Positions 11,701 through 42,802 of a DNA stretch of 42,802 nt are shown here, piece after piece. The first letter of the stretch is position 1. Each line of letters begins with the position of its first letter. Source of the DNA: Bacteroidales bacterium (GTDB lineage: Bacteria; Bacteroidota; Bacteroidia; Bacteroidales; GWF2-38-335); the NCBI GenBank assembly GCA_016936815.1, contig JAFGXD010000065.1:1-42802 (forward strand). The letters are read 5' to 3'. The position numbers were made by a program, and so were the translations under genes. The notes beneath the pieces were generated by a model that was given only the letters and a program-made list of their open reading frames with translations, was not told where the DNA came from and did no database searches.

Positions 11701-14700
11701 ATATTAATGTAAGAAAAACTTCGCCTGCTGCAATATCTGCGGCAGAAGGATTATAAGTAGCATTAAGGGTAAAACTATTAGGCGTAAATGTTCCGGTTCC
11801 TGAGCTTGTCCATTGTCCCGGCTGAGCCCATAATGAAATTTCACCGTTAAGGGAAACGTTTGGAGCATCCTGACAAACAATTTGATCTGAGCCTGCATTA
11901 ACATAAGGACCATCGAGAATTGTTAAAACAAGAAAATCTGAATTTGGTTCGCAAGCATCGGTGGCTGTTAGTACGAGATTAACCTGACCTGCAGCCGTAT
12001 CGGCATCGGAAGGAACGTAAGTTGCATTAAGGCTTGTTGCATCGGGTAGAAAATAGCCCGTTCCGTCGGGTGTTGACCATATTCCTGTTCCGGCGCCATC
12101 AGTAATGCTCCCTGAAATGGAGGCTGTCATGTTTCCACAGATTGTTTGATCCGGTCCGGCATCAACGCTTGGTATTGTTGTAATAGAAACCTGAACATTA
12201 TCTGAAACCGGCAAACAATTGCCATTATTGGTTGAAGTCAAAATTAACTCAACTCCTCCGTTTGCAAGGTCATCAGGACTCATTATATAAGAGGTTGTTA
12301 GCAATTCGTCATCGGGTAAGAAATATCCTGTTCCCATGCTGGTCCATATTCCCGTACTTGCCCCAACAGAAATTGTTCCTGAAATATCAACCAAAGTATC
12401 TCCGAAGCAGATAAAATAATCTCCATTTCCATTTACATAAGGTCCCGGATTAATGGTAATATTCATATTATCAGAAATTGTCTCACAACCATCGGTAGAA
12501 GTCAGGGTTAGAGTAACAAAGCCTGCTGCTGTATCTGCTTCGCTTGGATAATAAATTGCGTTAAGGTCTGTATTGGAAGGTAAAAACATTCCTGTTCCCG
12601 AGCTTGTCCATATACCGTTTGAAGCTCCGTTTGAAACATTACCGAAAAGATTCACGGCAGCATTATTAGCACAAACAATTTGGTTTGGACCTGCAAAGAC
12701 CATTGGACTAGGCTCCACTGTTACCAAAATATTATCGAATGCCGGATTACAAGTTCCGTTGTTTGTTGAGGTAAGGACAAGGGTAAACGATCCGGCAGCA
12801 TAATCGTCGTTACTGGGATAATAAACAGCGTCTAAATATGTATGATCAGGTGAAAATGAGCCTGTTCCATCAGGTGTTGTCCATATTCCTGTACCCGAAC
12901 CTCCTGTAATTATTCCGTTTAGAGGAACAGGATCGAAATTACAAATAAGCAAATCTGAACCTGCATTTGCAATTGGCACATCAAGAATTGTAACAAGAAT
13001 TTGGTCGCTCACCGGGTTACAATTCCCATTATTTGTTGATGTTAGTGTAATAGTAACCGACCCCGCTGCAATGTCGGCAGCAGAAAAATTATAAGTGGCA
13101 TTAAGATTGGTTGCCGAGGGTGAAAAATTACCTGTTCCAGATGAAGTCCACAAACCTGTAGCTGTTCCTCCACTAATTATTCCACTAAGAGCTACACCCG
13201 GATCTGTTTCACAAACCAATCTGTCGTCGCCTGCATTTACAAAAGGTGCAGGCAGAATTGTTAAAATCATTTGGTCGGAAATATCTGCACAACCATCGGT
13301 GGAAGTAAATGTAAGACTTACAAAGCCATTTGCTGTATCTGCGTTGCTTGGGGTGTAAATAACATTCCAATCTGTTGTTGAGGGCGCAAAATTTCCGGTT
13401 CCTGAACTTGTCCATATTCCCTGAGTGGCATTGAGAATTGTTCCGCTGACATTTACAACACTGTTATTAGCGCAGACCGTCTGGTCGGGACTCACTGTTA
13501 CAATAGGTTCGTCCATAAATGTAACATTAATTACATCAGTAACAGGAGGACATCCTGAATTACCTGTTGTTGTGAGAAATAAGGATAGAAAACCTGATGA
13601 TATTTCAGCAGCAGTTGGAGTGTAAGTGGCATTTAAGGTTGTGGCATTAGGAGAAAAGGTGCCTGTTCCACCAGACCAAATTCCTCCTGTGGCAGTACCT
13701 ATTGATCCGTTTAAATTAACATCGGCATTATTAGAACAAAGTAATTGATCGGCTCCTGCATTGGCCGTTATGGGAGCAAGATGTTGGGTAACAACAACGG
13801 TATCGTAAACCGGAGGGCAATCGGTTTGGTCTGTAACGGCAACAATATAAGTACCTAAACCAACACTAACAGATTGAGTTGTTTCGCCGGTATTCCACAA
13901 ATATTCGTAAGGAGGATTGCCTCCAACAGGTGTAGCCGTTAAAACCGCTGAACTGGCTCCAAAACATACAACTGCACTATCAGGTTCTATATCAACCCAT
14001 TTTTCATCATAAAAATATACTCTTACCGTATCAGAAGTATTAAACATGCTGCATGGCCCCAACATTGCACCGCTTACTTCAAAATCAATAAATGGAGGAA
14101 ATCCGGGTTGGGCAATTACATGAGCTGTATCGCAACCTGCTGCACAATCAAGAAAGTAATTATATTCGCCATAAGCTCCGGGAAATATCGAATTCCATAA
14201 TATTGATGATTCATCTAGGCCTGAAGACCAAATCATTCCAGTACAGCCGTCTGCTACTCCAATATCAGGGCCGGCTTCTACAGTTTCGCTAACGGTAATA
14301 CTGTATGCGCTAATGTCAGCCCCGGGTTTGCAGTAAACTATGCAATGCGGACCGGCTCCCGAAATACACAAAGGCTCTCCGGCAGATACGTAAGGTCCGC
14401 AATCGTATTGATAAAACTGACCGGGTGGAATGGGTGGAGTGGCAATATTAAAGGAAATCTGGTCGGTGGAGGGATGAGTATATACAATAAATCTTAAACA
14501 TCTTAATCCAGCATTATCACAACATACTCCGTCCCGGTTTGTTTCAGGACTTATCCAGGTTGAGTCAGGAGAAGCGGTTAGGTCAACATAAAAAGTAATT
14601 GTATTATCGCAAGTGTCGCATTGAGAAAAAACAGGAGAATTGAAAAAAAGTGAAAGAAGTATTATTAGGGGAATTATTTTGATAGAATTAATTTTCTGGT

Positions 14701-14704
14701 ACAT
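5765..14704 (-). CDS. Giant secreted PKD-repeat protein with type B T9SS sorting domain (SprB-like)
   Basis: A 2979-residue surface protein. Order: signal peptide (1-28), a unique Cys-rich region (about 29-230), one SprB-like repeat (about 236-310, with YEYLWNTGETTQS), 13 tandem modules of about 82 residues that open with a NAGxDQxxC-type line and contain GxWTSSGTG...LNATY...LTSTNNG (about 311-1380), 17 PKD-type modules with a WxFGDG core and usually a cysteine at each end (about 1380-2870), and a final gliding-motility-associated C-terminal domain (about 2880-2979, FPNAFSP, FNRWGELIF, GWDG, DVYVWKATY). This domain sends the protein through the T9SS. Such proteins act as adhesins or gliding motility filaments at the cell surface. 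The PorP/SprF gene follows at once. I cannot tell its ligand. No frameshift interrupts the 8.9-kb frame. Confidence 0.92.
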   Translation of the reverse strand: MYQKINSIKIIPLIILLSLFFNSPVFSQCDTCDNTITFYVDLTASPDSTWISPETNRDGVCCDNAGLRCLRFIVYTHPSTDQISFNIATPPIPPGQFYQYDCGPYVSAGEPLCISGAGPHCIVYCKPGADISAYSITVSETVEAGPDIGVADGCTGMIWSSGLDESSILWNSIFPGAYGEYNYFLDCAAGCDTAHVIAQPGFPPFIDFEVSGAMLGPCSMFNTSDTVRVYFYDEKWVDIEPDSAVVCFGASSAVLTATPVGGNPPYEYLWNTGETTQSVSVGLGTYIVAVTDQTDCPPVYDTVVVTQHLAPITANAGADQLLCSNNADVNLNGSIGTATGGIWSGGTGTFSPNATTLNATYTPTAAEISSGFLSLFLTTTGNSGCPPVTDVINVTFMDEPIVTVSPDQTVCANNSVVNVSGTILNATQGIWTSSGTGNFAPSTTDWNVIYTPSNADTANGFVSLTFTSTDGCADISDQMILTILPAPFVNAGDDRLVCETDPGVALSGIISGGTATGLWTSSGTGNFSPSATNLNATYNFSAADIAAGSVTITLTSTNNGNCNPVSDQILVTILDVPIANAGSDLLICNFDPVPLNGIITGGSGTGIWTTPDGTGSFSPDHTYLDAVYYPSNDDYAAGSFTLVLTSTNNGTCNPAFDNILVTVEPSPMVFAGPNQIVCANNAAVNLFGNVSNGASNGIWTSSGTGMFLPSNTDLNAIYYPSEADTAAGFVTLTLTSTDGCETISDNMNITINPGPYVNGNGDYFICFGDTLVDISGTISVGASTGIWTSMGTGYFLPDDELLTTSYIMSPDDLANGGVELILTSTNNGNCLPVSDNVQVSITTIPSVDAGPDQTICGNMTASISGSITDGAGTGIWSTPDGTGYFLPDATSLNATYVPSDADTAAGQVNLVLTATDACEPNSDFLVLTILDGPYVNAGSDQIVCQDAPNVSLNGEISLWAQPGQWTSSGTGTFTPNSFTLNATYNPSAADIAAGEVFLTLISTNNGICDAGNDQIHITILPPPIANAGGNQTVCANNSTAINGSITGGSGLGIWTTSGDGSFLNSDSTIINQYMPGPSDISSGSVTLTLTSINNGGCFPAVDNAIITIQPAPSVNAGSDLFACSNNPTVNLSGSVTIATGGVWSSLGGGWFFPDAGNLNAQFTASAADVANGSVSLVLSSTGNGLCLPVSDTMRIVFTPSPVVNAGTDIYVCEGTTTASLSGSVSGPTVTGVWSTLGSGSFFPSSTFLHSTYNLSSADLSNGWVDLVLTSTGNGNCLPVTDTVRVIVTEIPAVNAGPDQVVCANNSATLLNGVVFGTPGTGQWSTPNGTGSFSPSETSFTTTYYPGINDAALGDVIIIFTATDACVPVRDTLILTITPSPIVNAGPDQLICDNITSVQLNGTVSAGASQGLWTTTNGTGSFVPNANALNAVYNLSAGDIDNEIVTLVLTSTNNGDCFPVSDTMRISFGVNPIAGFDFPAVVCLNAPTVFTNTSTISEGSIVFHQWNFGSNVYYTEDVTHTFTFPGIYDIQLTEYSNIGCSDAITQQVTVLPPPVADFLYSPDCADDLVAFTDNSTPAASWLWVFGNGNTSTSQTPINQTYPMAGDYEVSLSITDANGCSAQKFDTITIFPRPTAAMLLSGYCAGELLGFNDMSVISDDTIISWTWDFGDGFTSNEQNPFHLYANEGNYNLILEVSTANCTDADTQLIYINPIPVIDISPSATDGCNYTNVVFTNNTTGASSYFWDFGDGVTSVVPSPNHTFINNTNLEMVFPVTVVAISPEGCRDTLHIDITIHPSPVAAISSNSTPGCSPLLVDFENFSADADNYLWNFGDGNTSTEISPQHTFINDTSFILYYNVVLTAYSAFGCADSINQFVTVFPNPDYDFTVTPDSSCNPSLVQLTTIPGEYSYEWIYGDGTSELAGANAWHMYSSTSLFDTTYTVELVTTTFFGCKDTVSHDLVIHPSPVANYSVDTLEGCTPLVVEITNNSFGANSYTWNYGDGTSSTNSSPIFSHTFENPGLSPVSYNCQLIAESDNGCTSVMTKTITVFPASHSGFYVSAEFGCSPLEVHFTNSSMGTDAYNWYFGDGNSSTNTNPVHTFVNNGLDAETVNVLLVSSSIYGCKDTATFPITIYPKPDASFALAASSGCSPFNAVITNNSVGASSYYWDFGDGTNSTSVGPTFNHTYENLTGLLQTVNIQLNVTNNFGCIDQVLQTVNVFPEVMADFSVETEGCSPYTVTFVNQSMGSVSYTWVFGDGNVSTSSGPTHTYVNNSLNDTVFTPYLVTLSTFGCPDTAYMDINVLAQPKPIFEISESSGCSPLTVDITNNSLGVSTYLWDFDDGTSSNTDAAAFSHVFVNTTLNPVTYVMELEVTGASGCVKTVFESITVYPEVYPYVICDTVGCHPLSITFNNFTTGASTYSWNFGDGGTSNDSVPTHTYFNPSAENVMISNATMLATSSFGCVDSVSFNINTYPTPNTVFSINQITGCSPFNAIIENNTQGGEDFYWNYGDGVLDNNSSEIIHHTYENYSGSTSTYNLELLAINQYGCEDHHAQYVTIYPDVSAGFVALNEGCSPLPVNFINMSEGAETYYWHFGDGASSGEVNPSHTYTNYTNTDVTYNMGLVATSEYGCQDTFIYHVTVFATPLASFTATPTFQVYPSTIVDIVNQTTGIWDYYWTFGDGQETSNANPWTHDYDTWGTYQITLFASGENCSDSISHTVIIDAPPPQAAFEPNASGCAPFHVIFENQTLYGTSFYWNFGDGGSSTMEHPSYTYHHPGVYIVSLKVIGYHGEEVLAEDRVITVYDKPLAYFKPIPAVVSIPNEMVTFFNLSENVEHSYWDFGDGTTDTVFQPTHYYVLEGSYDVYLHVTSPDGCVDSVLLNDAVLAQSDCQVIFPNAFSPAGAKMGENKKFRPIYKGITDYRLEIFNRWGELIFVSTNPDYGWDGYYREELCKQDVYVWKATYICANGEKFVKTGDCTLLR

Positions 14705-31620: not shown

Positions 31621-32676
31621 CTATTTTTTAGCCAGTTCCTTAACTCTGGCAAAATACATGGCAAACGAACGGTACATAAAGTGTGTCCATTTTCCGAAAG
31701 GAACAATTATTAAAGCCCACTGAACCAAAATAATTAGGTGGAAATAGTAAATCCACGAATTGTCGACAATTAGCTCTAAATCTATAAATAATCTAACTAC
31801 AAAAGCCGTAACACCCATTAAAAACAACCAGATTACAAAAAACCAGTCGCTGGGTTGTGAGTATTTACTAATTTCTTTTTTGCGCTTTATTCTTCCTGAA
31901 ACAAAATCTATTGTTACCAGAAAAACTATTGCGCTAAACAAATAACCAATGGCAATAATTATTTGATTTGAAGTGCCAAACCAATCGAGAACCACAGTTG
32001 TAAACAAAAGAGACAAGTACCCTAAAACGAGAATAAAATGTTCGAACCAGCGAAACTGATTATCGTCGCAGCCCAATGCTCTTTTTTGTGTAAACATGTG
32101 AATAAACAATTCCCCCATTGCCTTAAAATATATTCCTATTCCGGCCTTTGAACCGGGCTTTAAGACTGTAAAATTCCACATTCTAAAAATGTTGGGAAGA
32201 AGTATTATTGCAAAAACAGCTCCAATGGAAATCATTTCGAAAAGATGTCCGTAATGCATTATTTTTGCCAAATTAAAGTTTTCGTATGCTCCATAGCCAA
32301 TTACTCCTGCTGCTAATAACAAAAAAGCAAAAATGCTGAGAGGAAGAGATTTATACAAGAGTCCTGAAAGTCCTGTCCAGTCGTATTTTGCAGTTAACCA
32401 TCTTCTTAGCGCCTGCATTAGTTCTCCGGGGTTGGCAGTTTGAGGACAATGTTCAGAACATTCGCCACAGTAGTAACATTCCCAAGGCTTTAAAGATGCT
32501 GAAATTTCTTCCTGCATTCCCATAACACCATAACGAACCATTTCTCTGGGAAAGGAGCTGTCTTGAGTTGATAAGGAACAAACTGCTGTGCAATTTCCAC
32601 AGTTGTAGCATGCAGTAAAATCTACCGCACCATATTTTTTCAACTTAATTCCGAATTGGGGATCTATCTTATTCAT
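31621..32676 (-). CDS. qmoC: QmoC-like membrane subunit (two 4Fe-4S clusters plus b-type cytochrome domain)
   Basis: The 351-residue protein joins an HdrC-like N-terminus to a NarI/HdrE-like membrane domain. The first cluster is Cys23-Cys26-Cys29-Cys33 in CYNCGNCTAVC, the second Cys67-Cys70-Cys73-Cys77 in CYYCGECSEHC. From about residue 105 there are six hydrophobic helices with histidines placed as possible heme b ligands (MHYGHLFEMIS, WFEHFILVLGYL, YYFHLIILVQW). In sulfate reducers QmoC exchanges electrons with the menaquinone pool for the QmoAB flavoproteins. It is the last gene of the cluster and overlaps the winged-helix gene by 8 bp. The next features are a terminator and a converging gene. 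Confidence 0.85.
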   Translation of the reverse strand: MNKIDPQFGIKLKKYGAVDFTACYNCGNCTAVCSLSTQDSSFPREMVRYGVMGMQEEISASLKPWECYYCGECSEHCPQTANPGELMQALRRWLTAKYDWTGLSGLLYKSLPLSIFAFLLLAAGVIGYGAYENFNLAKIMHYGHLFEMISIGAVFAIILLPNIFRMWNFTVLKPGSKAGIGIYFKAMGELFIHMFTQKRALGCDDNQFRWFEHFILVLGYLSLLFTTVVLDWFGTSNQIIIAIGYLFSAIVFLVTIDFVSGRIKRKKEISKYSQPSDWFFVIWLFLMGVTAFVVRLFIDLELIVDNSWIYYFHLIILVQWALIIVPFGKWTHFMYRSFAMYFARVKELAKK

Positions 32677-32956
32677 TTACTTTCTTAATTTTATAAGTGA
32701 AATACTCATCCATATCGTCAATTTCTCCTTTTTCTACAATACCGTATTTTAAAAGAGACATCAGATAGTACAATACATCAGTTTTTGGCATAGCAAGTTT
32801 TTCGCTTAACTGACTAATAGTTAATTCTTCCTCCTTAAGAGCATCTACAATACTTTTCTTTATTCTTGTGAATTGCTTAAGATTTTCAATAGCAGCAGGC
32901 GAAACAGCTTGTTGCTCTTTTAAAAATTTAGCGGTTTTTCCTTTTTCGGGTTCCAT
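32669..32956 (-). CDS. Small winged-helix protein inside the Qmo-like operon
   Basis: The 95-residue product has a winged-helix-like core: IKKSIVDALKEEELTISQLSE, split as the helix IKKSIVDALKEE and the helix-turn-helix LTISQLSEKLAMP, then DVLYYLMSLLKYGIVEKG and a wing. It could bind DNA and control the cluster, or act as a small structural partner of the Hdr-like proteins. It sits 10 bp after the HdrA-like gene and overlaps the qmoC-like start by 8 bp, so it is translationally coupled to the complex subunits. The position inside the complex genes, not at the operon end, favours a close link to the enzyme. Confidence 0.7.
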   Translation of the reverse strand: MEPEKGKTAKFLKEQQAVSPAAIENLKQFTRIKKSIVDALKEEELTISQLSEKLAMPKTDVLYYLMSLLKYGIVEKGEIDDMDEYFTYKIKKVNE

Positions 32957-32966
32957 AATATTCTTA

Positions 32967-34898
32967 TTAATCTTTTGCCAATAATTTTATCATACTTTCA
33001 ATTTCCTTGTTAGAAAAGGCTATAAGCTCAATTGAGTCGGAAGGACAAACCGGAAGACACATTCCACAACCTTTGCAATTAGAATTGTTAATAACAGCAA
33101 CTGCTTTTCCGTTGTAATCAACTTTCTTTATTGCATCGAAAGGACAAGCTTCCGAGCAGATTCCGCACCAAGTGCAGGTATCTTTATCTACTTCAGCTAC
33201 AATTGGTTCTAGCTCTAATTCACCTTTACTTACATAGGAAAAAGATTTTGTAGCCGCCGAAAGAGCAGAATTTACCGATTCGGCAATATTTTTCGGACCC
33301 TGACAAGTTCCTGCAATGGTAATTCCATCTATTACAGTCTCTACAGGACGAAGTTTCATGTGAATTTCGTTAAAAAACTTATCTCTTCCTTTTGGTAATT
33401 TGAATAATGAACCTATTGAATTTTCGGCTCTTGGAGTCATTCCCGTTACCAAAACCACCAAATCGGCTTCCACCATCATTTCTTTTGTTCCGGTAAGAAT
33501 ATCGTTAATTTTTACAATTGTTTTTCCGTTCTGAATATCAACTACCGGAGGATCGTTTTCGTAAGATTGCAAGTAAATATCGCCCATTTTTGAAGATTCG
33601 TGGTACAAGGCTTCTTGTTTTCCATAAGTTCTTATTCCTCTGGTAAAGTGGAAGTTAAATATACCCGGAAACTTTTTCTTTGCTTCAATTGATGAGTGAA
33701 TTGTTGTGGTGCAACAGTAACGTGAACAAAATTTGTTTTCTCCTTCTGATTGTCGGCTTCCAACACAATAAATGTATGCTATATTTTTGATTTTCTTTCC
33801 GTTATAAATCAATTCCTTATTACTTGCACTAACAAGTCTCTGAAACTGAGAAAGAGTAATTACATTATCAATAGCATTAAAACCAAATTCACCTGTTTCC
33901 GGCAAATATGGGTCAAAACCTGTTGCCATAAGAATTGATCCTACATGCAAATCTACTGTTTCCTCTTTTTGGGAAAAGTCAATATTTTCGCAAACCTTTT
34001 CGCATTCTCCGCAACGGGTGCAGTTTATATTATCAATAACAGGCCTTTTTGGAAATTCAGATTCCTTATTTTGGTAAATTGCTTTTCTCTTTTTTAGGTT
34101 GAATTCGAATTCATCGTCAACTTCCACAGGACAAACGCTAATTGCTTTTTCAATGTTTTCCTTTTTGAATTCGCTTTTTACAAACGAAGGCTTAATTCTT
34201 ATTTTAAGATGAAAATCTCCAATACTACCCGAATACGATTCGGCCTCGGCACCTGTGTAAAGAATAATGTTTTTATGATTCTTAATTTTTTCATAAAGTT
34301 CGGAAACAATTTCTCCACCGGATTGATTGCTTGTACAAACCGAATCCCACTGTGCAGTTCGTCCCCCAACAAAAAATTCTCTTTCCACCAGAAAAACCTC
34401 TGAGCCCATATTTGCAAGTTCTATTGCAGCTTTCATACCGGCAACACCTGCTCCAAAAACAGCAACAGCTTTTTTCGACTTAATTTTTATTGGTTCAAGC
34501 GATTCGGCGTAGCGAACCTTAGCAATAGCAGCTTTTACAATGTGAATAGCCTTTTCGGTAGCCCCGGCTTTATCGTCGGAATGTGCCCAGGAAGCCTGTT
34601 CTCTAATGTTAGCATGAACGTAATTGTATTTATTAAGACCTGCACGTTCTGTAACAGCTCTAAAAGTTATTTGGTGAAGTTTTGGAGAGCATGAAGCCAC
34701 GATAACACCATCGAGCCCATTACTTTTAATATCTTCAACCATTTCTTTTTGGTTAGAATCGGCACAGGCAAACATAGTGGTTTTTGCCATAGCCACTCCT
34801 TCTTCGTTTTCAATGGCTTTTTTTACCTTTTCCACATCCACATAATCGGAGATATTTCCGCCACAGTGACAAATATATATACCTAGTTTTTTATTCAT
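32967..34898 (-). CDS. qmoB: HdrA-like iron-sulfur flavoprotein (QmoB-like, without MvhD domain)
   Basis: The 643-residue protein has the HdrA layout: an N-terminal domain with Cys10/Cys12 in YICHCGGNI and further cysteines (MFACADSN, ASCSPKLH), an FAD-binding thioredoxin-reductase-like domain (about 140-560, AVFGAGVAGMKAAIELA), an inserted ferredoxin motif (CTRCGECEKVC, about 290) and two C-terminal 4Fe-4S motifs (CTWCGICSEACP and CKGCGMCLPVCP, about 580-630). It should pass or bifurcate electrons between sulfur chemistry and the membrane subunit. Typical QmoB carries a C-terminal MvhD domain, which is missing here; a separate MvhD-like gene lies two genes upstream. Its gene starts 7 bp after the QmoA-like stop. 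Without HdrB/HdrC in view, Qmo is the better label than heterodisulfide reductase. Confidence 0.82.
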   Translation of the reverse strand: MNKKLGIYICHCGGNISDYVDVEKVKKAIENEEGVAMAKTTMFACADSNQKEMVEDIKSNGLDGVIVASCSPKLHQITFRAVTERAGLNKYNYVHANIREQASWAHSDDKAGATEKAIHIVKAAIAKVRYAESLEPIKIKSKKAVAVFGAGVAGMKAAIELANMGSEVFLVEREFFVGGRTAQWDSVCTSNQSGGEIVSELYEKIKNHKNIILYTGAEAESYSGSIGDFHLKIRIKPSFVKSEFKKENIEKAISVCPVEVDDEFEFNLKKRKAIYQNKESEFPKRPVIDNINCTRCGECEKVCENIDFSQKEETVDLHVGSILMATGFDPYLPETGEFGFNAIDNVITLSQFQRLVSASNKELIYNGKKIKNIAYIYCVGSRQSEGENKFCSRYCCTTTIHSSIEAKKKFPGIFNFHFTRGIRTYGKQEALYHESSKMGDIYLQSYENDPPVVDIQNGKTIVKINDILTGTKEMMVEADLVVLVTGMTPRAENSIGSLFKLPKGRDKFFNEIHMKLRPVETVIDGITIAGTCQGPKNIAESVNSALSAATKSFSYVSKGELELEPIVAEVDKDTCTWCGICSEACPFDAIKKVDYNGKAVAVINNSNCKGCGMCLPVCPSDSIELIAFSNKEIESMIKLLAKD

Positions 34899-34905
34899 TG
34901 CTTAT

Positions 34906-36204
34906 TTATTTATTATTAAGATATGAAATAGCTTCCGATGAGGCCGAGCCTGCGGAAAGAATTGAATCCGGAATATCCATTGGTCCTGAGGCCGTTCCTG
35001 CAACAAAAACTCCTTTTATACTTGTTTTTGCGGGACTTACCAATTGCTCGGGTTGTTTCACAAAATTGTATTCATCTAATTGAAGGCTTTTGTCAACGAA
35101 TAGTTTTTCGGATTCTGTATTTGGAAGAACTCCAACAGAAAGCACCACCATATCGTGTTCGGCTTCTTTTAAGATATTCTCGTTAATATCTTCGTAGCGC
35201 AAAATCAAGTTACCTTTTGCGTTTTCTGTTATTTTTCCAATTTTTCCTTTAACAAAATTTACTCCCATACCTTTGGCTTGTTCGTAGAATTCTTCAAATC
35301 CTTTTCCAAACGACCTGATATTTATGTAGTAAATTGTAATATCGGCCATAGGCAAAGCGCCCATAAGAAGTTGAGCTTGTTTTATTGAGTACATGCAACA
35401 AATTTGAGAGCAAATTGGGTTTCCAACCGATGCATCTCTGGAGCCGGTGCAAAGAACGTATGCAATTTTGTCGGGCATTTTTCCGTCGCCCGGTCGTAAA
35501 ATTGTGTGAAAAGGTCTTGTTGGAGCAAGTTGTCTTTCCATTTGCATACTGGTAATAACATTTTTATACTCACCAAAGCCGTATCTAGGAATATTTACAG
35601 GGTCGAAAAGATTAAATCCTGTGGCAACCACAACAGTTCTTACCTTAACAGAATATTCAACAGGCTTTTGGGTAAAGTCTATACATTTTGTTGGGCAAGC
35701 TCTTTCGCAAGCTCCACAAAGAGTACAATTCTCAATGTCTATTGCAGCTACTCTGGGACTTGCAATGCTGAAAGGAATATATGCAGCTTTTCTTCCCACC
35801 AAGCCATATTGGTATTGATCGGGAACATTTACCGGACAAGCTTCTTCGCAAAGTTGGCAACCGGTGCAGTCTTCCGCAATAACATATCTGGGTTTACGCA
35901 CAACCTTAGCATCGAAATCGTTTTCCCCATTTTTCACAATTCCTTTAACCTCCGTTTCAGTAAAAATTGTAATTAGAGGATGTCGGGAAATTTCCGAAAC
36001 CTTTGGAGTTGTAATGCAAGCCGAACAATCGAGAGTAGGAAAAACCTTGCTTAGGTGAATCATTTTTCCACCAACAGAAAGGTCTTTTTCAACTACCAAC
36101 ACTTTAAAACCGTTAGTTGCGAGATTTAGTGCAGCTTCTCCTCCGGCAATGCCGCCGCCGACAACAAGAGCATCAAAGGCAAGAGATGTATTTTTTTCTG
36201 ACAT
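34906..36204 (-). CDS. qmoA: HdrA-like iron-sulfur flavoprotein (QmoA-like)
   Basis: The 432-residue protein has an N-terminal FAD-binding motif (ALVVGGGIAGGEAALNLA, 12-29), HdrA-type cysteines Cys60 and Cys63 in LDCSACITTPK, two 4Fe-4S motifs (Cys113-116-119-123 in CTGCQLCEEACPV; Cys160-163-166-170 in CTLCGACERACPT), and a second flavin-domain half ending with GVFVAGTASGPMDIPDS. Its short length, with no N-terminal HdrA extension, matches QmoA rather than full HdrA. In QmoABC this subunit faces the partner enzyme, adenylylsulfate reductase in sulfate reducers. That enzyme is not in the window, so the partner here is unknown. The start is 2 bp after the MvhD-like stop. Confidence 0.83.
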   Translation of the reverse strand: MSEKNTSLAFDALVVGGGIAGGEAALNLATNGFKVLVVEKDLSVGGKMIHLSKVFPTLDCSACITTPKVSEISRHPLITIFTETEVKGIVKNGENDFDAKVVRKPRYVIAEDCTGCQLCEEACPVNVPDQYQYGLVGRKAAYIPFSIASPRVAAIDIENCTLCGACERACPTKCIDFTQKPVEYSVKVRTVVVATGFNLFDPVNIPRYGFGEYKNVITSMQMERQLAPTRPFHTILRPGDGKMPDKIAYVLCTGSRDASVGNPICSQICCMYSIKQAQLLMGALPMADITIYYINIRSFGKGFEEFYEQAKGMGVNFVKGKIGKITENAKGNLILRYEDINENILKEAEHDMVVLSVGVLPNTESEKLFVDKSLQLDEYNFVKQPEQLVSPAKTSIKGVFVAGTASGPMDIPDSILSAGSASSEAISYLNNK

Positions 36205-36206
36205 AA

Positions 36207-36614
36207 TCAGTTGTTTACATTATTTATTAAATATTCATTGAAGGATTTCATTTGCTTAACAAACGATTCGCTACAAACCGAACAAATAGCTGCCATGCGC
36301 AACCTTGCACTTTCAATATTTTTTTCCTTCATTAATTCGTGGGTTTTTGCAACAATATGACCGGTTTTTTCGGTGCAGGATTCTCCGTAGGGACAATCGC
36401 TTCCGTCTGCTGCAATAAAGACACCGCTAAACCCTTCTTCAAAAGCGTTTAGAATCCACCTTGGTTTAATTCCGCTCGAGCATGGAACCGGAATAGTATA
36501 AACTGTTGGAGGATAATGCAATTTCAGAAGTCCTGCCATATCAATGGCAGGATCTGAAATCTTCTCAGTGGAAAACACTAAGATTTTAGCATATTTCTTG
36601 TTTGAAACAGGCAT
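36207..36614 (-). CDS. Stand-alone MvhD-like protein
   Basis: The 135-residue product matches the MvhD/FlpD family: AKILVFSTEKISDPAIDMAG, then YPPTVYTIPVPCSSGIKPRW, AFEEGFSGVFIAADGSDCPY and a conserved ESARLRMA segment. Cysteines 45, 74, 80, 111 and 114 are available for a 2Fe-2S cluster. The N-terminal CNWC pair seen in many family members is replaced by STEK. MvhD carries electrons between a hydrogenase or dehydrogenase and HdrA, or forms the C-terminus of QmoB. Here it sits 7 bp after tusA and 2 bp before qmoA, as if the QmoB tail had become a separate subunit. Confidence 0.78.
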   Translation of the reverse strand: MPVSNKKYAKILVFSTEKISDPAIDMAGLLKLHYPPTVYTIPVPCSSGIKPRWILNAFEEGFSGVFIAADGSDCPYGESCTEKTGHIVAKTHELMKEKNIESARLRMAAICSVCSESFVKQMKSFNEYLINNVNN

Positions 36615-36621
36615 GTTTTAA

Positions 36622-36873
36622 TTAGTTTTTCTTCATGTAAATTTTAAAAAATCCGCTTTCTTCAACGGTTCCAAGGTATTCGTGACCTTGTTTTGTGCAC
36701 CATTTTGGAATATCAACTCTTGTTCCTTCGTCCGCCGATAATACTTCCATAATATCGCCTGATTTAATAGTTCCAATAGCTTTTTTTGCTTCCAATAATG
36801 GACCGGGACAAGCTGTTCCGCGTGCGTCAACTGATTTGTTAACCTCTAATGCTTTTAATTCTTGTTCATTCAT
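36622..36873 (-). CDS. tusA: Sulfur carrier protein TusA
   Basis: The 83-residue cytoplasmic protein has the TusA/SirA signature DARGTACPGPLLEAKKA with the persulfide-carrying Cys22 in the CPGP motif, followed by the usual two-layer fold residues (LSADEGTRVDIPKWCTKQG). TusA takes sulfur from a rhodanese or DsrE-type protein and passes it on. It lies 20 bp after a DsrE-family gene and 7 bp before the MvhD-like gene, linking the sulfur carriers directly to the Qmo-like complex. In this setting a role in energy metabolism is more likely than tRNA thiolation. Confidence 0.92.
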   Translation of the reverse strand: MNEQELKALEVNKSVDARGTACPGPLLEAKKAIGTIKSGDIMEVLSADEGTRVDIPKWCTKQGHEYLGTVEESGFFKIYMKKN

Positions 36874-36893
36874 GATTGTAAATTATTAATTGA

Positions 36894-37259
36894 TTAATAT
36901 GTTAATACTGATTTTGCTGAAATTACTTCGTCAACCAACGTGCCTGCTGCTGCAGGTTCTGCACCTTGCACTAAATCTTTAGCAGAAATACCTCTTTCTT
37001 TTATACAAGGAGCACAAATATACAATTTTCCTCCTTCATCGTAAAAATTATCTAAAAGTTCTTTCAATGGGAGTAAACCATGAGCTCTAACATTCTCCGC
37101 TTCTCCTTTCTTAGAAAGTACTACTGCTTCCGATTGAAGAAACATTACCACTTCAACATCCATAGATTGAGCTGCTGTAGCAAAAACAAAGGGTAAAGTA
37201 GCCTTTTCAGGATTCTCTAAACCAATTGTACTAATGATAACTATTTTTTCTTTGTTCAT
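36894..37259 (-). CDS. DsrE-family sulfur carrier
   Basis: From the ATG at 37259 the product is 121 residues. A GTG four codons upstream is a poorer start. The DsrE/F-like fold is shown by VIISTIGLENPEKA, DVEVVMFLQSEAV and the conserved region KLYICAPCIKERG with Cys82 and Cys85, the usual position of the active cysteine. DsrE proteins accept persulfide sulfur and exchange it with TusA, whose gene follows after 20 bp. It is the first gene after the 140-bp control region with a CRP/FNR-type dyad, so it probably begins its own transcript that runs to qmoC. Confidence 0.88.
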   Translation of the reverse strand: MNKEKIVIISTIGLENPEKATLPFVFATAAQSMDVEVVMFLQSEAVVLSKKGEAENVRAHGLLPLKELLDNFYDEGGKLYICAPCIKERGISAKDLVQGAEPAAAGTLVDEVISAKSVLTY

Positions 37260-37332
37260 CTTTTTTTTCACAAATGTCAGTAATTAATATACCGATTGAA
37301 AGTAAATTGATGTTAAACGAAATATGTTTTTT

Positions 37333-37387
37333 TTTGAATCTTATCATACTGCAACATGACCAAAGTCATATCATAGTGTGATTCAAA
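37333..37387. repeat. Nested inverted repeats in the control region between the DsrE genes
   Basis: TTTGAATC (37333-37340) and GATTCAAA (37380-37387) form a perfect outer 8-bp inverted repeat around a second dyad, ATGAC-CAAA-GTCAT (37356-37369). The outer right arm overlaps the CRP/FNR-type site at 37377-37392. The inner dyad may be a second operator. Its minus-strand reading contains TGACTTTG, one mismatch from a -7 box. Confidence 0.55.
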
Positions 37388-37392
37388 TCACA
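37377..37392. promoter_or_regulatory. CRP/FNR-family operator
   Basis: TGTGATT-CA-AATCACA has perfect 7-bp arms and meets the CRP consensus TGTGA-N6-TCACA exactly. It lies 8 bp beyond the stop of the first DsrE gene and 118 bp before the ATG of the second. It is well placed to control the DsrE-tusA-qmo part of the cluster. HcpR, a CRP/FNR-family regulator known in Bacteroidota and sulfate reducers, recognises sites of this general type, so it is the first candidate; this is inference. Confidence 0.65.
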
Positions 37393-37399
37393 AAAAGAT

Positions 37400-37813
37400 T
37401 TATATGTTTATGTGAATATCTGCTTCTTTGGCAGCATCAATATACTGACCAATACCGCAAAGACCATCAACAATATCAATAAAATCTTCCTTTTTTTCTC
37501 CACCCCAAAGTTTACCGGCAAGAGAGCATATATAGATTTTAACATCGGTAAATTCTTTTGCTTGTTCAAAAAACTCTAACCAAGTTGGTACAGCAAGTTT
37601 TTCCATATTGGCAAAGAATTCGCTTTTTAGATGAGGATATTCTACCAAAGAGTCGGTAAGATCTTCATTTCCTTTAATAAAAGCTCTTGCAGCCGTTAAG
37701 AGAACATAAACCTCAACATCCATATCATCGGCAGCAGCACCACTCATTATTACTCCTGTACCAACCAGTTTGTCAACACTTCCCGAAGAAAGTCCAATAA
37801 CCATTTTCGACAT
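37400..37813 (-). CDS. DsrE-like sulfurtransferase-fold protein
   Basis: The 137-residue product has the DsrE/DsrF/DrsH-like fold: KMVIGLSSGSVDKL, AAADDMDVEVYVLLTAARAF and KIYICSLAGKLWG with Cys96, plus Cys119 in GLCGIGQ. It resembles the longer peroxiredoxin-like or DsrE3-type members rather than DsrE of the DsrEFH complex. It probably binds sulfur on Cys96 in the cytoplasm and exchanges it with the second DsrE or TusA. The start is fixed by a good ribosome-binding site at 37821-37828. It is the only cytoplasmic protein in the otherwise exported upstream half of the cluster. Confidence 0.82.
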   Translation of the reverse strand: MSKMVIGLSSGSVDKLVGTGVIMSGAAADDMDVEVYVLLTAARAFIKGNEDLTDSLVEYPHLKSEFFANMEKLAVPTWLEFFEQAKEFTDVKIYICSLAGKLWGGEKKEDFIDIVDGLCGIGQYIDAAKEADIHINI

Positions 37814-37820
37814 ATTTTTA

Positions 37821-37828
37821 TCTCCTTT
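37821..37828 (-). promoter_or_regulatory. Strong Shine-Dalgarno site before the first DsrE gene
   Basis: On the minus strand AAAGGAGA lies 7 bp before the ATG at 37813. Such a clear site is rare in this window, where most genes lack one, and suggests high translation of this DsrE protein. Confidence 0.6.
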
Positions 37829-37843
37829 GTTTTAATTAATAAA

Positions 37844-38347
37844 TCAACCTCCACAGCCTCCTGAAGGCGGACCTGCTACCTTCGTTTCATGTTGTGCAGA
37901 TTTTGGTTCCAGCTCCACTAAATCTGGAAATTGCTGTTTCCAATTTTCAAATCCTCCTTCAAGAACCACAACATTGCTAAATTTCATTTTTGGCAAAACC
38001 GAGGCCAATAGACTGCTTCTGTCGCCATTGCTGCAATACACAACCAATTTTGATCTTCTTTCGGGAGCGGCATTACTAATTGTAAATTCTGCCAAGCCTC
38101 TTGGAACATTTACTGCTCCTTTAATACAGGCCGAATCGTACTCGTTTTCTTCACGGCAATCGATAATGTAGAGTTTTTCCTCATTTTCTACTGCCGACTT
38201 TAAATCTTCTGCTGTAATAGTTTCAACACAAGATTGAGCATCTTTTACCATATCGCTGCTGCTTTCGTAAACCTTCATTTCCTTTTCGGAACATGAAGAA
38301 AACAGAACAGCCAAAGCCAGTAATGATATTTGAATTATTTTTTTCAT
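37844..38347 (-). CDS. Rhodanese-domain lipoprotein with C-terminal GGCGG tail
   Basis: From the ATG at 38347 the product is 167 residues. The earlier ATG at 38386 would overlap the previous gene and hide the lipoprotein signal. The signal MKKIIQISLLALAVLFSSC ends in a lipobox with Cys19. One rhodanese domain (about 45-145) has LYIIDCREENEYD, VNVPRGLAEF and the active loop Cys105-SNGDRS. The C-terminus is PPSGGCGG with Cys165, almost the same tail as in the lipoprotein at 41282-41767. It should carry or transfer sulfane sulfur outside the inner membrane. The extra tail cysteine could hold a second persulfide. Confidence 0.86.
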   Translation of the reverse strand: MKKIIQISLLALAVLFSSCSEKEMKVYESSSDMVKDAQSCVETITAEDLKSAVENEEKLYIIDCREENEYDSACIKGAVNVPRGLAEFTISNAAPERRSKLVVYCSNGDRSSLLASVLPKMKFSNVVVLEGGFENWKQQFPDLVELEPKSAQHETKVAGPPSGGCGG

Positions 38348-38357
38348 CTTTTTTTGT

Positions 38358-39152
38358 TTATTTACTCCATTCGCTATATGCACCATCGTAAACTTTTACA
38401 TTGGTATAATTAAGCAATGATGTTAAAATAAAATAAGCCAAACCTGCCGATGTGCTTGTTTTACAATAAAGAATAACCTCTTTGTCTTTTGTAACACCTG
38501 CAGTTTCGAAAAGGGTAGTAAGAGCTGCATTAGCTTTTATTTTGGTGCCTGTAAGGAAACCTTCGTAACAAACATTTATAGCATTCCCAATATGCCCTGC
38601 ATCGTAATCAGCTTTTTTTCTTGTATCAACAATAATAGTTCCCGAAGCAGACAGTTTAGACTGTACATAAGCTTTATCAACCAAAATACTGCTTTTTACC
38701 GCAGGAGTAAATGTTGCCGCAGTTGGAGTTTTAGCTACTTTTGTAATAGGTTTTCTTGCGCTAAACCAGCCGTCCATTTGTCCATCTAGCATTTTAACAT
38801 CTTTGCAACCCATATATTTTAGAATCCAGTAAAGACGTCCGGCATTAACACCGGTTTTACAATAAACAACAATGGTTTTATCGGCTGTAATTCCGTGTTT
38901 TCCCAAAATGGAAGCCAAAGATGCTTTATCTTTCAGTTTTCCTTCGTAAGGAGTTTTATCGCATAATGTTTCAACATCCAAATTAATAGCGCCGTTAACG
39001 TGAGTTTTAAGGTAATCTGCAGAAGTTCTTGCATCTACAACAACCACATTTGGTTTTCCAATAAGAGGAGCCAAATCGTTTGCCGAAATTTTCTGAGCAG
39101 ATAGCTGAGAAATAATCAGCAGCGAAAAAATTAGTGAAAAAATTGTTTTCAT
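38358..39152 (-). CDS. Secreted tandem-rhodanese sulfurtransferase
   Basis: The 264-residue product has a signal peptide (MKTIFSLIFSLLIISQLSAQ) and two rhodanese domains. The first (about 24-140) has VVVVDARTSADY and the active loop Cys98-KTGVNAG. The second (about 150-264) has IIVDTRKKADYDAGH and Cys230-KTSTSAG. Unlike classical two-domain thiosulfate sulfurtransferases, where only the second domain keeps the cysteine, both domains keep it here. It acts in the periplasm, probably on thiosulfate or a polysulfide. The gene lies 11 bp from the porin gene and 10 bp from the following lipoprotein. Confidence 0.88.
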   Translation of the reverse strand: MKTIFSLIFSLLIISQLSAQKISANDLAPLIGKPNVVVVDARTSADYLKTHVNGAINLDVETLCDKTPYEGKLKDKASLASILGKHGITADKTIVVYCKTGVNAGRLYWILKYMGCKDVKMLDGQMDGWFSARKPITKVAKTPTAATFTPAVKSSILVDKAYVQSKLSASGTIIVDTRKKADYDAGHIGNAINVCYEGFLTGTKIKANAALTTLFETAGVTKDKEVILYCKTSTSAGLAYFILTSLLNYTNVKVYDGAYSEWSK

Positions 39153-39163
39153 GATATTATTTT

Positions 39164-40246
39164 TTAAAATTTTGCCTGTAATTGAATCATTAACATATCG
39201 TTATCTATTGGAGTATGTTCCGACACATTTACATAGTTAATTTGAACTCTTGAATAGTCGTTTACAAAGTAATTTAATCCAATAGTAAGGTAATTAATCT
39301 CATCGTTATCTGTTTCGCTGCTTGCATCCCAACTGTCGTATTTAACAACAGGTTCAAGATTCCACTTTGTTTTAAAAGCAGCCATTACAGCGTAACCCGA
39401 TTTTCCGTAAGTTCCTTCCTGAAGAGTGTTATAGCCGACGATTCCTCCGCAACCTCCATAAACAGGTACTCTTGAAGCACTATAAAGCTTATCGTTTCCG
39501 GTAATATATTCGGTTTGAAATGTTAGATTATTGTATTTTACCTCTAATTCTCCTCCAAAACGCTGAATATCGTTCAAATCTTGAGTCAAATCTGTTGGAT
39601 TAGTTTTTTCCATCTTAAAACTACCTCCAACTTTTACGAATTTATGAGGATTAAATACCAGTCTTCCAACTATTTCCTTATTATTATTGTTGTCTGTTGT
39701 ATTCATTCCTGCTCCGTTCATTATTCCTAAACTGTATTTTACCAATAGAGTGTCGTGACCACCGGCAATTACCATTCCCAAATCTCTTTGAGGTCCGGCA
39801 AGCTGATTAACAACTTCTGAACGATTTACAGTGTATAACTCAGAACATCCTGTTGATTGTTCTATACCAAATGAAGATTTAAACTGACCTAAAGAAATTT
39901 TTGCCCATTTGGCAAAGCGGGTATAAGTAACAAAAGCATCAAGAAGATGTGGAGTTGCCGCTTGAGATTTAAAGGCGCTCATTTCAACAAAGAAATAATA
40001 TTCAATGTCGTATGGAATTTCACCAAGAACACCTAGTCTAGCCCGGTTAAAAGTAAAATTATTTTCATCCAGGCTATTGCCATCATCATCCTTACCGTTT
40101 AGGAAATAGTTGTATTGAGGTTGAATAAAGCCTTTAAGGTTTACACCTTCTTTGCCTCCGCCCATGCAGCCTTGCGAAAAGCTGTTTAAACTTGTTCCTG
40201 CAATAAGGATGATGATTAGTCTAAAAATATTTGTTTTTAAACGCAT
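39164..40246 (-). CDS. Outer-membrane porin (phosphate-selective porin O/P-like)
   Basis: The 360-residue product has a signal peptide (to SFSQ, about residue 25) and alternating beta-strand sequence of a 16-stranded barrel of the OprO/OprP type: GFIQPQYNYFLNG, FTFNRARLGVLGEIPYDIEYYFFVEMS in its parts, ISLGQFKSSFGIEQ, and a C-terminal strand ending in MIQLQAKF. Porins of this family select anions. Its place in the middle of four rhodanese genes suggests uptake of a sulfur anion such as thiosulfate, tetrathionate or polysulfide across the outer membrane; this is inference. The gene starts 20 bp after the double-rhodanese lipoprotein gene. Confidence 0.82.
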   Translation of the reverse strand: MRLKTNIFRLIIILIAGTSLNSFSQGCMGGGKEGVNLKGFIQPQYNYFLNGKDDDGNSLDENNFTFNRARLGVLGEIPYDIEYYFFVEMSAFKSQAATPHLLDAFVTYTRFAKWAKISLGQFKSSFGIEQSTGCSELYTVNRSEVVNQLAGPQRDLGMVIAGGHDTLLVKYSLGIMNGAGMNTTDNNNNKEIVGRLVFNPHKFVKVGGSFKMEKTNPTDLTQDLNDIQRFGGELEVKYNNLTFQTEYITGNDKLYSASRVPVYGGCGGIVGYNTLQEGTYGKSGYAVMAAFKTKWNLEPVVKYDSWDASSETDNDEINYLTIGLNYFVNDYSRVQINYVNVSEHTPIDNDMLMIQLQAKF

Positions 40247-40266
40247 AGCAATAGTTTATTTATTTA

Positions 40267-41229
40267 TTAGTTTTCGTAAACAAAACTTCCTGAGCTTGTC
40301 CAGTTGTGAGATTCAAGTGTGCTGTGAATCATTCCATTGGCACCAAATTTTAAACTAACTGCATCGTAACCTAAAACAGTTAAGTAAGCAGTAATTAAGC
40401 TTGAAGTTTGTCCAGTCCAGCAGTAAGTTACAACAGTAGAAGCACCATCAAGATATTTAAAACCATCGGCTGCAAGAGTTAAATCTTCTTTAATTCTGTA
40501 AGCACCTTTAATATGACCGTAATGTTCAACATCAGTTAAAGCCCAGTAGTTGTTAATAAAGTAGTTGGTTGGTGTAGCCAAAACATCGGCAGCATTAACT
40601 CCTTTAAATCCACCTTCAAGCATTGCTTCAACTCTTTCGGCAAGAATAGCCTGACCGGTAGTTGCTGTAGTTGTAAAAGTAGGTTTTGTAAAAGTTACAT
40701 TTGTTTCCAGAGTATTTGTAGTTGACCAGTTGGAATTACCTGTACCCATGTCGCTAACATTTGCTGTCCATTTGTCGAAATCAACATTCCATGAGCTCAT
40801 TCCCCACATTAATATTTTGCTGTCGAAGCCGCTAAGTTTAAGAGCAACATGACCATGTGCAGCAGTTTGACCTGTATAACAAACAACCACAATAGGTTTT
40901 CCACCGTTACTTGCAGCCTGATTTACAACATTTGCTAAAGTTGTATTAACAGCTCCGGGAATATGACCAAGGTTATAGTCAACTTCAGCTCTTAGGTCGA
41001 TAATGTAAAAATTCTCTTTTGTAGTATCAAGAGCAGCAGCGGTAATAGTCCATGTTGTCATAATTTCGTTAAGATCCATTCCATTTGCAGCCATGTAATC
41101 TGTCATTTCCTTAACATAGTCTGTAGTTGGAGTTGGATCATCGTCTTTATCCTTTTTACAACCTGTTGAAACAATAATTATTGATGCAAAAAGCACCGCC
41201 ATTAATTTGTAAAGATTTTTTGTATTCAT
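40267..41229 (-). CDS. Double-rhodanese lipoprotein
   Basis: The 320-residue product has a lipoprotein signal with Cys24 in IIIVSTGCKKDKDDD. Two rhodanese domains follow. The first (about 40-160) has FYIIDLRAEVDYNLGH and Cys118-YTGQTAAHG. The second (about 190-315) has Cys270-WTGQTSSLI. The matching C-(Y/W)-TGQT loops show that the domains are close relatives and differ from those in the other rhodaneses here. Both keep the active cysteine. It is anchored outside the inner membrane and should relay sulfane sulfur between the porin side and the YeeE permease. Confidence 0.87.
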   Translation of the reverse strand: MNTKNLYKLMAVLFASIIIVSTGCKKDKDDDPTPTTDYVKEMTDYMAANGMDLNEIMTTWTITAAALDTTKENFYIIDLRAEVDYNLGHIPGAVNTTLANVVNQAASNGGKPIVVVCYTGQTAAHGHVALKLSGFDSKILMWGMSSWNVDFDKWTANVSDMGTGNSNWSTTNTLETNVTFTKPTFTTTATTGQAILAERVEAMLEGGFKGVNAADVLATPTNYFINNYWALTDVEHYGHIKGAYRIKEDLTLAADGFKYLDGASTVVTYCWTGQTSSLITAYLTVLGYDAVSLKFGANGMIHSTLESHNWTSSGSFVYEN

Positions 41230-41281
41230 TTTATTTAATTTAATTGGTTACTAATTTTTTATTTGTTTTAGAATTATTTGT

Positions 41282-41767
41282 TTACCCTCCGCAACCTCCC
41301 GAAGAAGCTTTTGGTTTTGCGTTTGGGTCTTGATTTGGGTTAAAAGCATCGTAGCCACCTTCAAGATTTTTTACATTTTTAAATCCAAGTTGTTTTAGAC
41401 TTCTTACTGCCAAAATACCTCTGTTTCCGCTTTTGCAATAAACTACAATTTCGGTACTGTCTTTCATTGGTGGGTAAAGGTATTGCGATGACCAGAATTC
41501 TTCATCGTATATTTTGAACTCCAAAATTCCTCGCGGAAGCAGAATGGAACCGGGAATGTTTTCGGTATAATATTCGCCGGGTTGTCTAATATCCAGAAGA
41601 AGAAATTCCTCACCGGATTCAATCTTTTTGTGTAAATCGTCAACTGAAATTTGTTCAATGCTCGATTTATAGTTTTCGGCCATTTCTGTACCGTCTTCAT
41701 AAATTCCGGTACAACCGAAAAACAGTACTGAAAAGGAAAGAAGAAATAATATTGATAATTTTCTCAT
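41282..41767 (-). CDS. Rhodanese-domain lipoprotein with C-terminal GGCGG tail
   Basis: The 161-residue product has a lipobox Cys19 in SVLFFGC. One rhodanese domain (about 38-145) has FLLLDIRQPGEYYTENIPG, LLPRGILEFKIYDEEFW and the active loop Cys111-KSGNRG. The C-terminus is KASSGGCGG with Cys159. It shares the PRG(I/L)xEF segment and the GGCGG tail with the lipoprotein at 37844-38347, so the two are probably paralogues placed at the two ends of the rhodanese set. It lies 12 bp after the YeeE gene, which suggests that it hands sulfur to that permease. Confidence 0.87.
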   Translation of the reverse strand: MRKLSILFLLSFSVLFFGCTGIYEDGTEMAENYKSSIEQISVDDLHKKIESGEEFLLLDIRQPGEYYTENIPGSILLPRGILEFKIYDEEFWSSQYLYPPMKDSTEIVVYCKSGNRGILAVRSLKQLGFKNVKNLEGGYDAFNPNQDPNAKPKASSGGCGG

Positions 41768-41779
41768 GATAATTTTGTT

Positions 41780-42802
41780 TTAGAAAGCTGAAAATCTTCC
41801 GGTTTTTTCATTCCACTTAACAAATGCATACCAAACAAATAGAAAAGCTAAAACAGCCACAAAAGCGCCATCGTAACCAATATAGTCGGGCAGAAAGTTC
41901 TTGAATCGGGTTGAATGAGGTAAGATATTATCGAAAACCGGTACAATAAAAGCTTTAGAAAGAGGAGAAACCACAATAAATCCTAAAGCAGCCATCCAAA
42001 GTTTAATCTGCCCCTCACCTACTCTCCACAAAGTTCCAACAGCGCAACCACCGGCAATTGTCATTCCCACGCCAAAAATCAATCCTCCAATTCCTGCTTT
42101 TGCCCAGAAATGAGGAAATACCCAAGTCATTTCTCTTGCACGCAAAGCTTCATCGCCGGCACCAATTCCAAAGATTTTAATAACAGTAAAGCCAATTAAA
42201 CCCACCAGAAGTCCGGCCATTACACCAACTGCTCCATGCGATTCGCCACTCATAAACGGGTCTCGAAAAGCTTTAACAATACAAAATCTGGAACGTTGAG
42301 AAATTAATCCCATTAATCCGCCAATAATTATGAACCAAGTCATTACATTATTATTTCCGGCGTAAGAATAGGCCAGAATAATAACGCCTAGAACCATAAT
42401 CCAACCAAGAATTACTTGCCAACCGCCTTTTTGGGGACTTGCTGCAAGAAAGGTATAAGATTTTCCTGTTGACCATTTTGGAAATTTGTCCATTTCCCAT
42501 AATAAATAGCGTAAAGCAATAATTACCCCAATAAACAAACCTAAAGTAAAAACCAGTGCTCCACCAGATAATGCTGCAACACCGCTAAAAAATGCTCCAA
42601 TAGTGCAACCAATTCCAACAGTAGCACCTATTGCCATTAATCCACCGCCAAGTAAACCTTTTAATAATTCTCCTTTTGGTGGAATACGTAGAGCAAATTC
42701 TTTGGAAAACAATGCGCCAATAAAAGAACCCAATACTATTAAAATTCCCAACATAGCATAAAGATTCATATTTACAGGGCTTAAATTCTCGAACGACATC
42801 AT
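41780..42802 (-). CDS. YeeE/YedE (TsuA-like) sulfur permease, N-terminus probably outside window
   Basis: At least 340 residues with about nine membrane helices. The conserved pore motifs of the family are GIGCTIGAFFSG (Cys66), RSRFCIVKAFRDPF (about Cys174) and GMTIAGGCAVGTLWR (about Cys254). In TsuA such cysteines pass thiosulfate through the membrane. The first motif normally has its own RxRFC-type segment upstream, and that is not present. An ATG ends exactly at the window edge, so the true start is probably further right. It is the first visible gene of the cluster and may move thiosulfate or sulfane sulfur to the cytoplasmic DsrE and TusA. Confidence 0.87.
   Translation of the reverse strand: MMSFENLSPVNMNLYAMLGILIVLGSFIGALFSKEFALRIPPKGELLKGLLGGGLMAIGATVGIGCTIGAFFSGVAALSGGALVFTLGLFIGVIIALRYLLWEMDKFPKWSTGKSYTFLAASPQKGGWQVILGWIMVLGVIILAYSYAGNNNVMTWFIIIGGLMGLISQRSRFCIVKAFRDPFMSGESHGAVGVMAGLLVGLIGFTVIKIFGIGAGDEALRAREMTWVFPHFWAKAGIGGLIFGVGMTIAGGCAVGTLWRVGEGQIKLWMAALGFIVVSPLSKAFIVPVFDNILPHSTRFKNFLPDYIGYDGAFVAVLAFLFVWYAFVKWNEKTGRFSAF

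Follow-up and report, generated by a model that had tools for sequence, protein, structure and literature searches.

Within the contig JAFGXD010000065.1 of a Bacteroidales bacterium, which was analyzed over its whole length of 42,802 nucleotides (the window), four exported rhodaneses are encoded between positions 37,844 and 41,767. We call them Rhd1, Rhd2x2, the MST-like protein, and Rhd5 (Table 1). Their genes are the middle of a 14-gene operon on the minus strand (31621-42802, contig C188), which runs into the contig end. All four proteins match the Pfam family PF00581 (65, 75, 135, and 74 bits; cut-off 22.2), and the 1, 2, 2, and 1 rhodanese domains which an earlier note had counted in the four open reading frames (ORFs) are indeed there. 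The six active-site loops quoted in that note agree exactly with the translations, and its assignment of three lipoproteins and one signal-peptide protein is borne out by readable lipoboxes and a plain signal peptide. Rhd5 probably starts at 38347, not at 38386. The MST-like protein reaches 107 bits with the MST model NF008557 and thus stays under its cut-off of 250. In the genome of 3.58 Mb we find nine rhodanese matches, six of them within these 4 kb. The clustering is therefore not due to chance. The remaining three matches are two exported proteins (contig C72) and a protein of 345 residues without a signal peptide (contig C51).

Besides the operon as a whole, two features of this interval had gone unmentioned. 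A gene for a Porin_O_P outer-membrane channel (39164-40246) sits among the rhodanese genes, and Rhd1 and Rhd5 carry a C-terminal GGCGG, both ending in SGGCGG.

The C-terminal tail and the catalytic cysteine

We counted both features in relatives encoded near a fused YedE of 404 residues, the importer type of the operon, after removal of sequences more than 90% identical; the relatives counted share ancestry. The tail is found in all 36 relatives of Rhd5, only 13 of which have the catalytic cysteine. In the other 23 the position is filled by serine (11), glycine (8), asparagine (2), aspartate (1), or alanine (1). Single-domain relatives of Rhd1 have the tail in 36 and the catalytic cysteine in 38 of 45 cases. 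The double rhodaneses keep both catalytic cysteines throughout (38/38) and are never tailed (0/38), and in the MST-like relatives the cysteine of the second domain is present in 36/36 and that of the first domain in 13/36. For single-domain rhodaneses near fused YedE the tail thus amounts to 72 of 81. As controls we took 67 rhodaneses of 60 genomes within the phylum, 28 of them judged exported by a crude hydrophobicity rule, and none has the tail (Fisher 1e-32, uncorrected for shared ancestry). Likewise, when 17 exported rhodaneses adjacent to YedE are aligned, the C-terminal Gly-Cys is invariant and the active-site cysteine is variable. A further 20 loci, chosen from a list of genes for split YedE, encode 32 complete rhodaneses, 28 of them tailed. 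A third class, a YedE of 345 residues, had a rhodanese at none of 20 loci. The two YedE classes which have rhodanese neighbors, fused and split, share the tail.

These counts bear on the interpretation given in the earlier note, namely that four enzymes with different donors and acceptors are set apart by their active-site loops. The loop types are reproducible for each protein: the double rhodanese has C[YW]TGQT, the second domain of the MST-like protein C[AK]TS, and Rhd1 CKxGxR. However, most Rhd5 and most MST first domains have no catalytic cysteine, and a specialization of the loops is silent on the C-terminal arm, which is the invariant feature. That all six domains keep the active cysteine is true of the window but specific to its clade. 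We agree that the four proteins are not plainly redundant, as across many genera each of them keeps its own place and its own features, and that their roles differ; it is the loop type which is not the conserved feature. An explanation by donor and acceptor range appears unlikely to us.

In the predicted structure, Rhd1 folds confidently as a rhodanese domain, for which 6mxv and 2hhg are the best matches in the PDB. The last helix ends at residue 142, and over the remaining 19 residues the predicted local distance difference test score (pLDDT) declines from 82 to 56 and 36. Cys159 is therefore predicted to lie on a flexible, disordered end. Rhd2x2 is modeled confidently with two domains (pLDDT 91). 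Its individual domains match rhodaneses, and the arrangement of the two domains superposes poorly on classical two-domain enzymes (TM-score about 0.26-0.31).

We considered the tail as a sorting signal of the GlyGly-CTERM type and rejected this, since the following hydrophobic segment and the basic end are missing. In the open-access literature searched we found no description of a rhodanese combined with GGCGG. Two records encode three fused rhodanese domains with a GGCGG end beside YedE (L107:11314-12540 and L110:10947-12506), and in a third a YedE half and a rhodanese are apparently fused in one frame of 408 residues with a C-terminal GGC tail (L067:2920-4146).

Tails are also found on other exported proteins. 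Among 1004 complete non-rhodanese proteins of more than 120 residues from 119 loci, a C-terminal GC occurs in only four, every one of them exported and encoded near YedE. One is a genuine SoxY from a SAR324 record (PF13501, E = 4.7e-16). The other three are TPR-like and are encoded directly upstream of yedE of the YTD type (yedE-tusA-dsrE) in three Desulfobacterota-type records. These TPR-like proteins end in EGC (L146:9542-9964, L148:280-714, and L151:7962-8384), and we regard them as candidate handover partners in Desulfobacterota.

The operon and its conservation

The remaining genes of the operon encode an importer, cytoplasmic sulfur-transfer proteins, and subunits of a putative electron-transfer complex (Table 1). 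The YedE relatives have three invariant cysteines, C130, C238, and C317 (A1 numbering), which align with the cysteine motifs of the importer 6leo, as expected for the channel cysteines of TsuA/YeeE. With the contig-truncated YedE of the window the curated TsuA models give 91 and 82 bits, under their cut-offs of 400 and 645.

Table 1. Features of the rhodanese operon in the window
Feature	Coordinates	Strand	Properties and evidence
YedE/YeeE-type sulfur importer	41780..42802	-	PF04143 142 bits; N-terminal ~64 residues lost at contig end (42802)
Rhd1	41282..41767	-	Lipoprotein (lipobox LFFGC), one rhodanese domain (CKSGNRG), C-terminal GGCGG arm
Rhd1 GGCGG tail codons	41285..41299	-	ORF translation and alignment
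Rhd2x2	40267..41229	-	Lipoprotein (lipobox VSTGC), two catalytic rhodanese domains (CYTGQT, CWTGQT)
Porin_O_P outer-membrane channel	39164..40246	-	PF07396 68.6 bits; three conserved cysteines
MST-like protein	38358..39152	-	264 residues, two rhodanese domains (CKTGVNAG, CKTSTSAG), plain signal peptide (...LSAQ)
Rhd5	37844..38347	-	Lipoprotein (lipobox FSSC), one rhodanese domain (CSNGDRS), C-terminal GGCGG arm
Rhd5 GGCGG tail codons	37847..37861	-	ORF translation and alignment
DsrE2-like cytoplasmic sulfurtransferase	37400..37813	-	PF13686 34 bits; invariant C96 in 45/45
Gap between DsrE2 and DsrE	37356..37392	-	Two palindromes, TGTGATTTGAATCACA and ATGACTTTGGTCAT, resembling CRP/FNR sites; from sequence, function putative
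DsrE-family protein (CAPC)	36894..37271	-	PF02635 59.6 bits
TusA sulfur carrier (ACPGP)	36622..36873	-	PF01206 80.8 bits; C22 in 30/30
FlpD/MvhD iron-sulfur electron-transfer subunit	36207..36614	-	PF02662 97.9 bits
HdrA-like FAD/FeS subunit (QmoA-like)	34906..36204	-	HdrA2 model 475 bits, partial, under cut-off 1100
HdrA-like FAD/FeS subunit (QmoB-like, without FlpD domain)	32967..34898	-	HdrA2 model 562 bits, under cut-off 1100
Small winged-helix protein	32669..32956	-	PF01022 30 bits; no conserved cysteine
QmoC-like membrane subunit	31621..32676	-	Two 4Fe-4S motifs; NF038018 qmoC 133 bits, cut-off 300; eight invariant cysteines

The order YedE-Rhd1-Rhd2x2-porin-MST-Rhd5-DsrE2-TusA-FlpD-HdrA-HdrA-HTH-QmoC is found again in many Bacteroidales and partly in other phyla. 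The gene order of the window is also seen in another family of the same order (L033) and in many further genomes (L056-L069). On sufficiently long contigs a second TusA is usually encoded ahead of yedE. A search by YedE gave 80 loci of GTDB species, mainly from Bacteroidales and some from Zixibacteria, Krumholzibacteriota, Delongbacteria, KSB1, and archaea; the gene sets are not always full. In Hodarchaeota (L140-L144) both the rhodaneses and the porin are missing, and YedE lies close to DsrE2-TusA-FlpD-HdrA-HdrA-HTH-QmoC. The YedE of Methanomassiliicoccales and of other archaeal records (L132, L136, and L138) neighbors a single protein of four to six rhodanese domains. These archaeal arrangements suggest that the rhodaneses and the porin form the extracytoplasmic front end to a YedE-based core. 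The archaeal multidomain proteins (six or four domains with C[FY]TG[HQ][TS] loops) are encoded directly after YedE and are untailed (L138:5536-8574, L132:1904-3979, and L136:3702-5780).

The porin has its cysteines in the motifs QGC at the mature N-terminus, NT[AP]C, and GGGC, which are kept in most porins of the operon. Such conserved cysteine columns are unusual for an outer-membrane channel. Unrelated Porin_O_P proteins contain 0-3 cysteines, thus only the conservation of the columns is notable, not the number. Palindromes similar to those between the DsrE2 and DsrE genes lie upstream of the operons of some relatives, where a divergent gene resembling a CRP/FNR regulator (~231 residues) is often present.

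We also searched the genome for enzymes of known sulfur pathways. As the genome is ~95% complete and each search used a single family, absences are provisional. The family NIR_SIR/DsrAB (PF01077) gave no match in the genome and was positive in 11 of 14 controls; CCG/HdrB (PF02754) gave none and was positive in 12 of 14. No aprA exceeds the cut-off (best match 23 bits, cut-off 642). A SoxY search was without match in the genome, but also in the controls. Three molybdopterin genes are present, one of which belongs to a second system with tailed rhodaneses of its own. This Psr/Phs-like molybdoenzyme operon (L031:4418-10637, contig C72) comprises, besides a split YedE, two exported rhodaneses with GGCG at their ends.

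A proposed sulfur import relay and its alternatives

We suggest that the four exported rhodaneses are, with fair probability, the extracytoplasmic front end of a relay for the import of sulfane sulfur. They look like a set split into catalysts (Rhd2x2 and the MST-like protein) and tail carriers (Rhd1 and Rhd5) centered on the YedE importer. In such a relay a sulfane-sulfur compound such as polysulfide or thiosulfate would enter through the outer-membrane porin. Rhd2x2 and the MST-like protein, judged from their conserved catalytic cysteines, could accept the sulfur as a cysteine persulfide. Then, the sulfur would be loaded onto the disordered GGCGG ends of Rhd1 and Rhd5, which may serve as swinging arms, as in SoxY. 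The cysteine in the GGCGG of SoxY is an established sulfur-binding site (PMC6067878). From the arm the sulfur would pass into the YedE channel with its three cysteines; transfer from the SoxY cysteine to the three channel cysteines of the YeeE-like SoxT has been called conceivable (PMC11582611). On the cytoplasmic side TusA and the DsrE-type proteins could ferry the sulfur to the FlpD-HdrA-HdrA-QmoC-like complex, and finally this complex might exchange electrons between a protein persulfide and the quinone pool. Because DsrAB, HdrB, and AprA were not found and a Psr/Phs-like operon is located elsewhere in the genome, reduction to sulfide is slightly favored over oxidation.

How carrier-bound periplasmic sulfane sulfur enters the cytoplasm has been described as poorly understood in the work on SoxT (PMC11582611). 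In dozens of genomes a tailed carrier is encoded next to the importer, and it offers a likely partner for the handover, down to the residue concerned. The relay would further place a sulfur route from the outer membrane to the cytoplasm, without recognized Dsr or sHdr enzymes, in the Bacteroidota and account for the persistence of rhodanese domains whose active sites are dead. More tentatively, and with somewhat less than even expectation, we propose that the C-terminal Gly-Cys arm serves importers of the YedE/YeeE type in general as a means of delivery. Exported proteins of unrelated build (rhodaneses, rhodaneses with a dead active site, TPR-like proteins, and SoxY) could carry it; the arm could hand a persulfide into the cysteine channel and, in Bacteroidales, feed a Dsr-independent Qmo/Hdr-like respiratory complex.

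Several observations weigh against the relay with its tailed carriers. Nine of the 45 Rhd1 proteins have no tail, and those of Delongbacteria end in GG without the cysteine. Some archaea pair YedE with the untailed proteins of four to six domains and Hodarchaeota have YedE without any rhodanese; the arm is therefore not obligatory for YedE. Furthermore, the difference in the catalytic cysteine of Rhd5 maps to one change on the YedE tree, so that the counts are not independent events. Despite this single change, five different residues replace the cysteine, and no complete Rhd5 of the operon has lost the tail. The agreement between the Rhd5 cysteine and the cysteine of the first MST domain (34/34 genomes) had been a candidate for functional coupling; we dropped it, as it too comes down to a single change on the YedE tree.

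A close parallel to the tailed rhodaneses is SoxY/SoxYZ. SoxY is also an exported protein with a C-terminal GGCGG arm; it carries sulfur covalently, and import by the YeeE-like SoxT has been proposed downstream. Rhd1 and Rhd5, however, have the scaffold of a rhodanese lipoprotein. In the Pfam scan they match only rhodanese and not PF13501, and the operon is without Sox genes. The SoxT1A-TusA/DsrE3C-sHdr route of Hyphomicrobium has the same succession of periplasmic carrier, YeeE-like importer, TusA/DsrE, and Hdr-type enzyme. In our genome the putative carrier is a rhodanese, and FlpD and QmoC-like subunits occur instead of HdrB. With QmoABC the operon shares two HdrA-type flavoproteins, an FlpD/MvhD unit, and a QmoC-like membrane subunit. 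In contrast to QmoABC, FlpD is encoded by a separate gene, the QmoC-like protein is under the qmoC cut-off, and the partner AprAB was not found.

The operon could also be a YTD cluster (DsrEFH type II) for sulfur disproportionation or sulfur oxidation in Bacteroidota. Genes for yedE, tusA, and DsrE-fold proteins are common to both (PMC12998232; PF04143, PF01206, and PF02635/PF13686), as are import and cytoplasmic sulfur transfer, and the YedE of the Desulfobacterota-type YTD loci is homologous with 37-38% identity. However, the operon adds exported rhodaneses, a porin, and the FlpD-HdrA-HdrA-QmoC-like genes. The small YTD proteins of 97-102 residues beside yedE in L146/L148 have no BLAST match among the operon proteins at 1e-5, where remote homology is possible, and the genome gave neither a DsrAB match nor an aprA over the cut-off. 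We consider that there is little probability of a YTD cluster.

Alternatively, the GGC(GG) tail might have a structural or regulatory role and not carry sulfur: it might tether Rhd1 to Rhd5 through a disulfide, bind a metal, or sense the redox state. A lone cysteine on a flexible end could indeed make a mixed disulfide, and Rhd1 and Rhd5 mostly co-occur. Yet the tail recurs beside YedE on unrelated folds, including SoxY with its known sulfur-carrier cysteine, and genomes with a single tailed protein exist, which makes a role of this kind quite improbable. A role of the operon in handling oxyanions of selenium or tellurium, as in the ext cluster of Geobacter, is very improbable: a rhodanese gene (ExtH) adjoins a porin gene (ExtI) there too (PMC5877670), and the porin, the MST-like protein, and YedE match the models of ExtI (54 bits), ExtH (69 bits), and selenium YedE (121 bits), but all these scores are under the curated cut-offs (150, 200, and 350), the operon has no cytochrome genes, its DsrE/TusA/Hdr-type genes indicate sulfur, and the YedE of 345 residues without rhodaneses is a separate class.

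Elsewhere in the window (5765-14704) we note a very large ORF of 2979 residues, followed by an ORF of 343 residues on the same strand.

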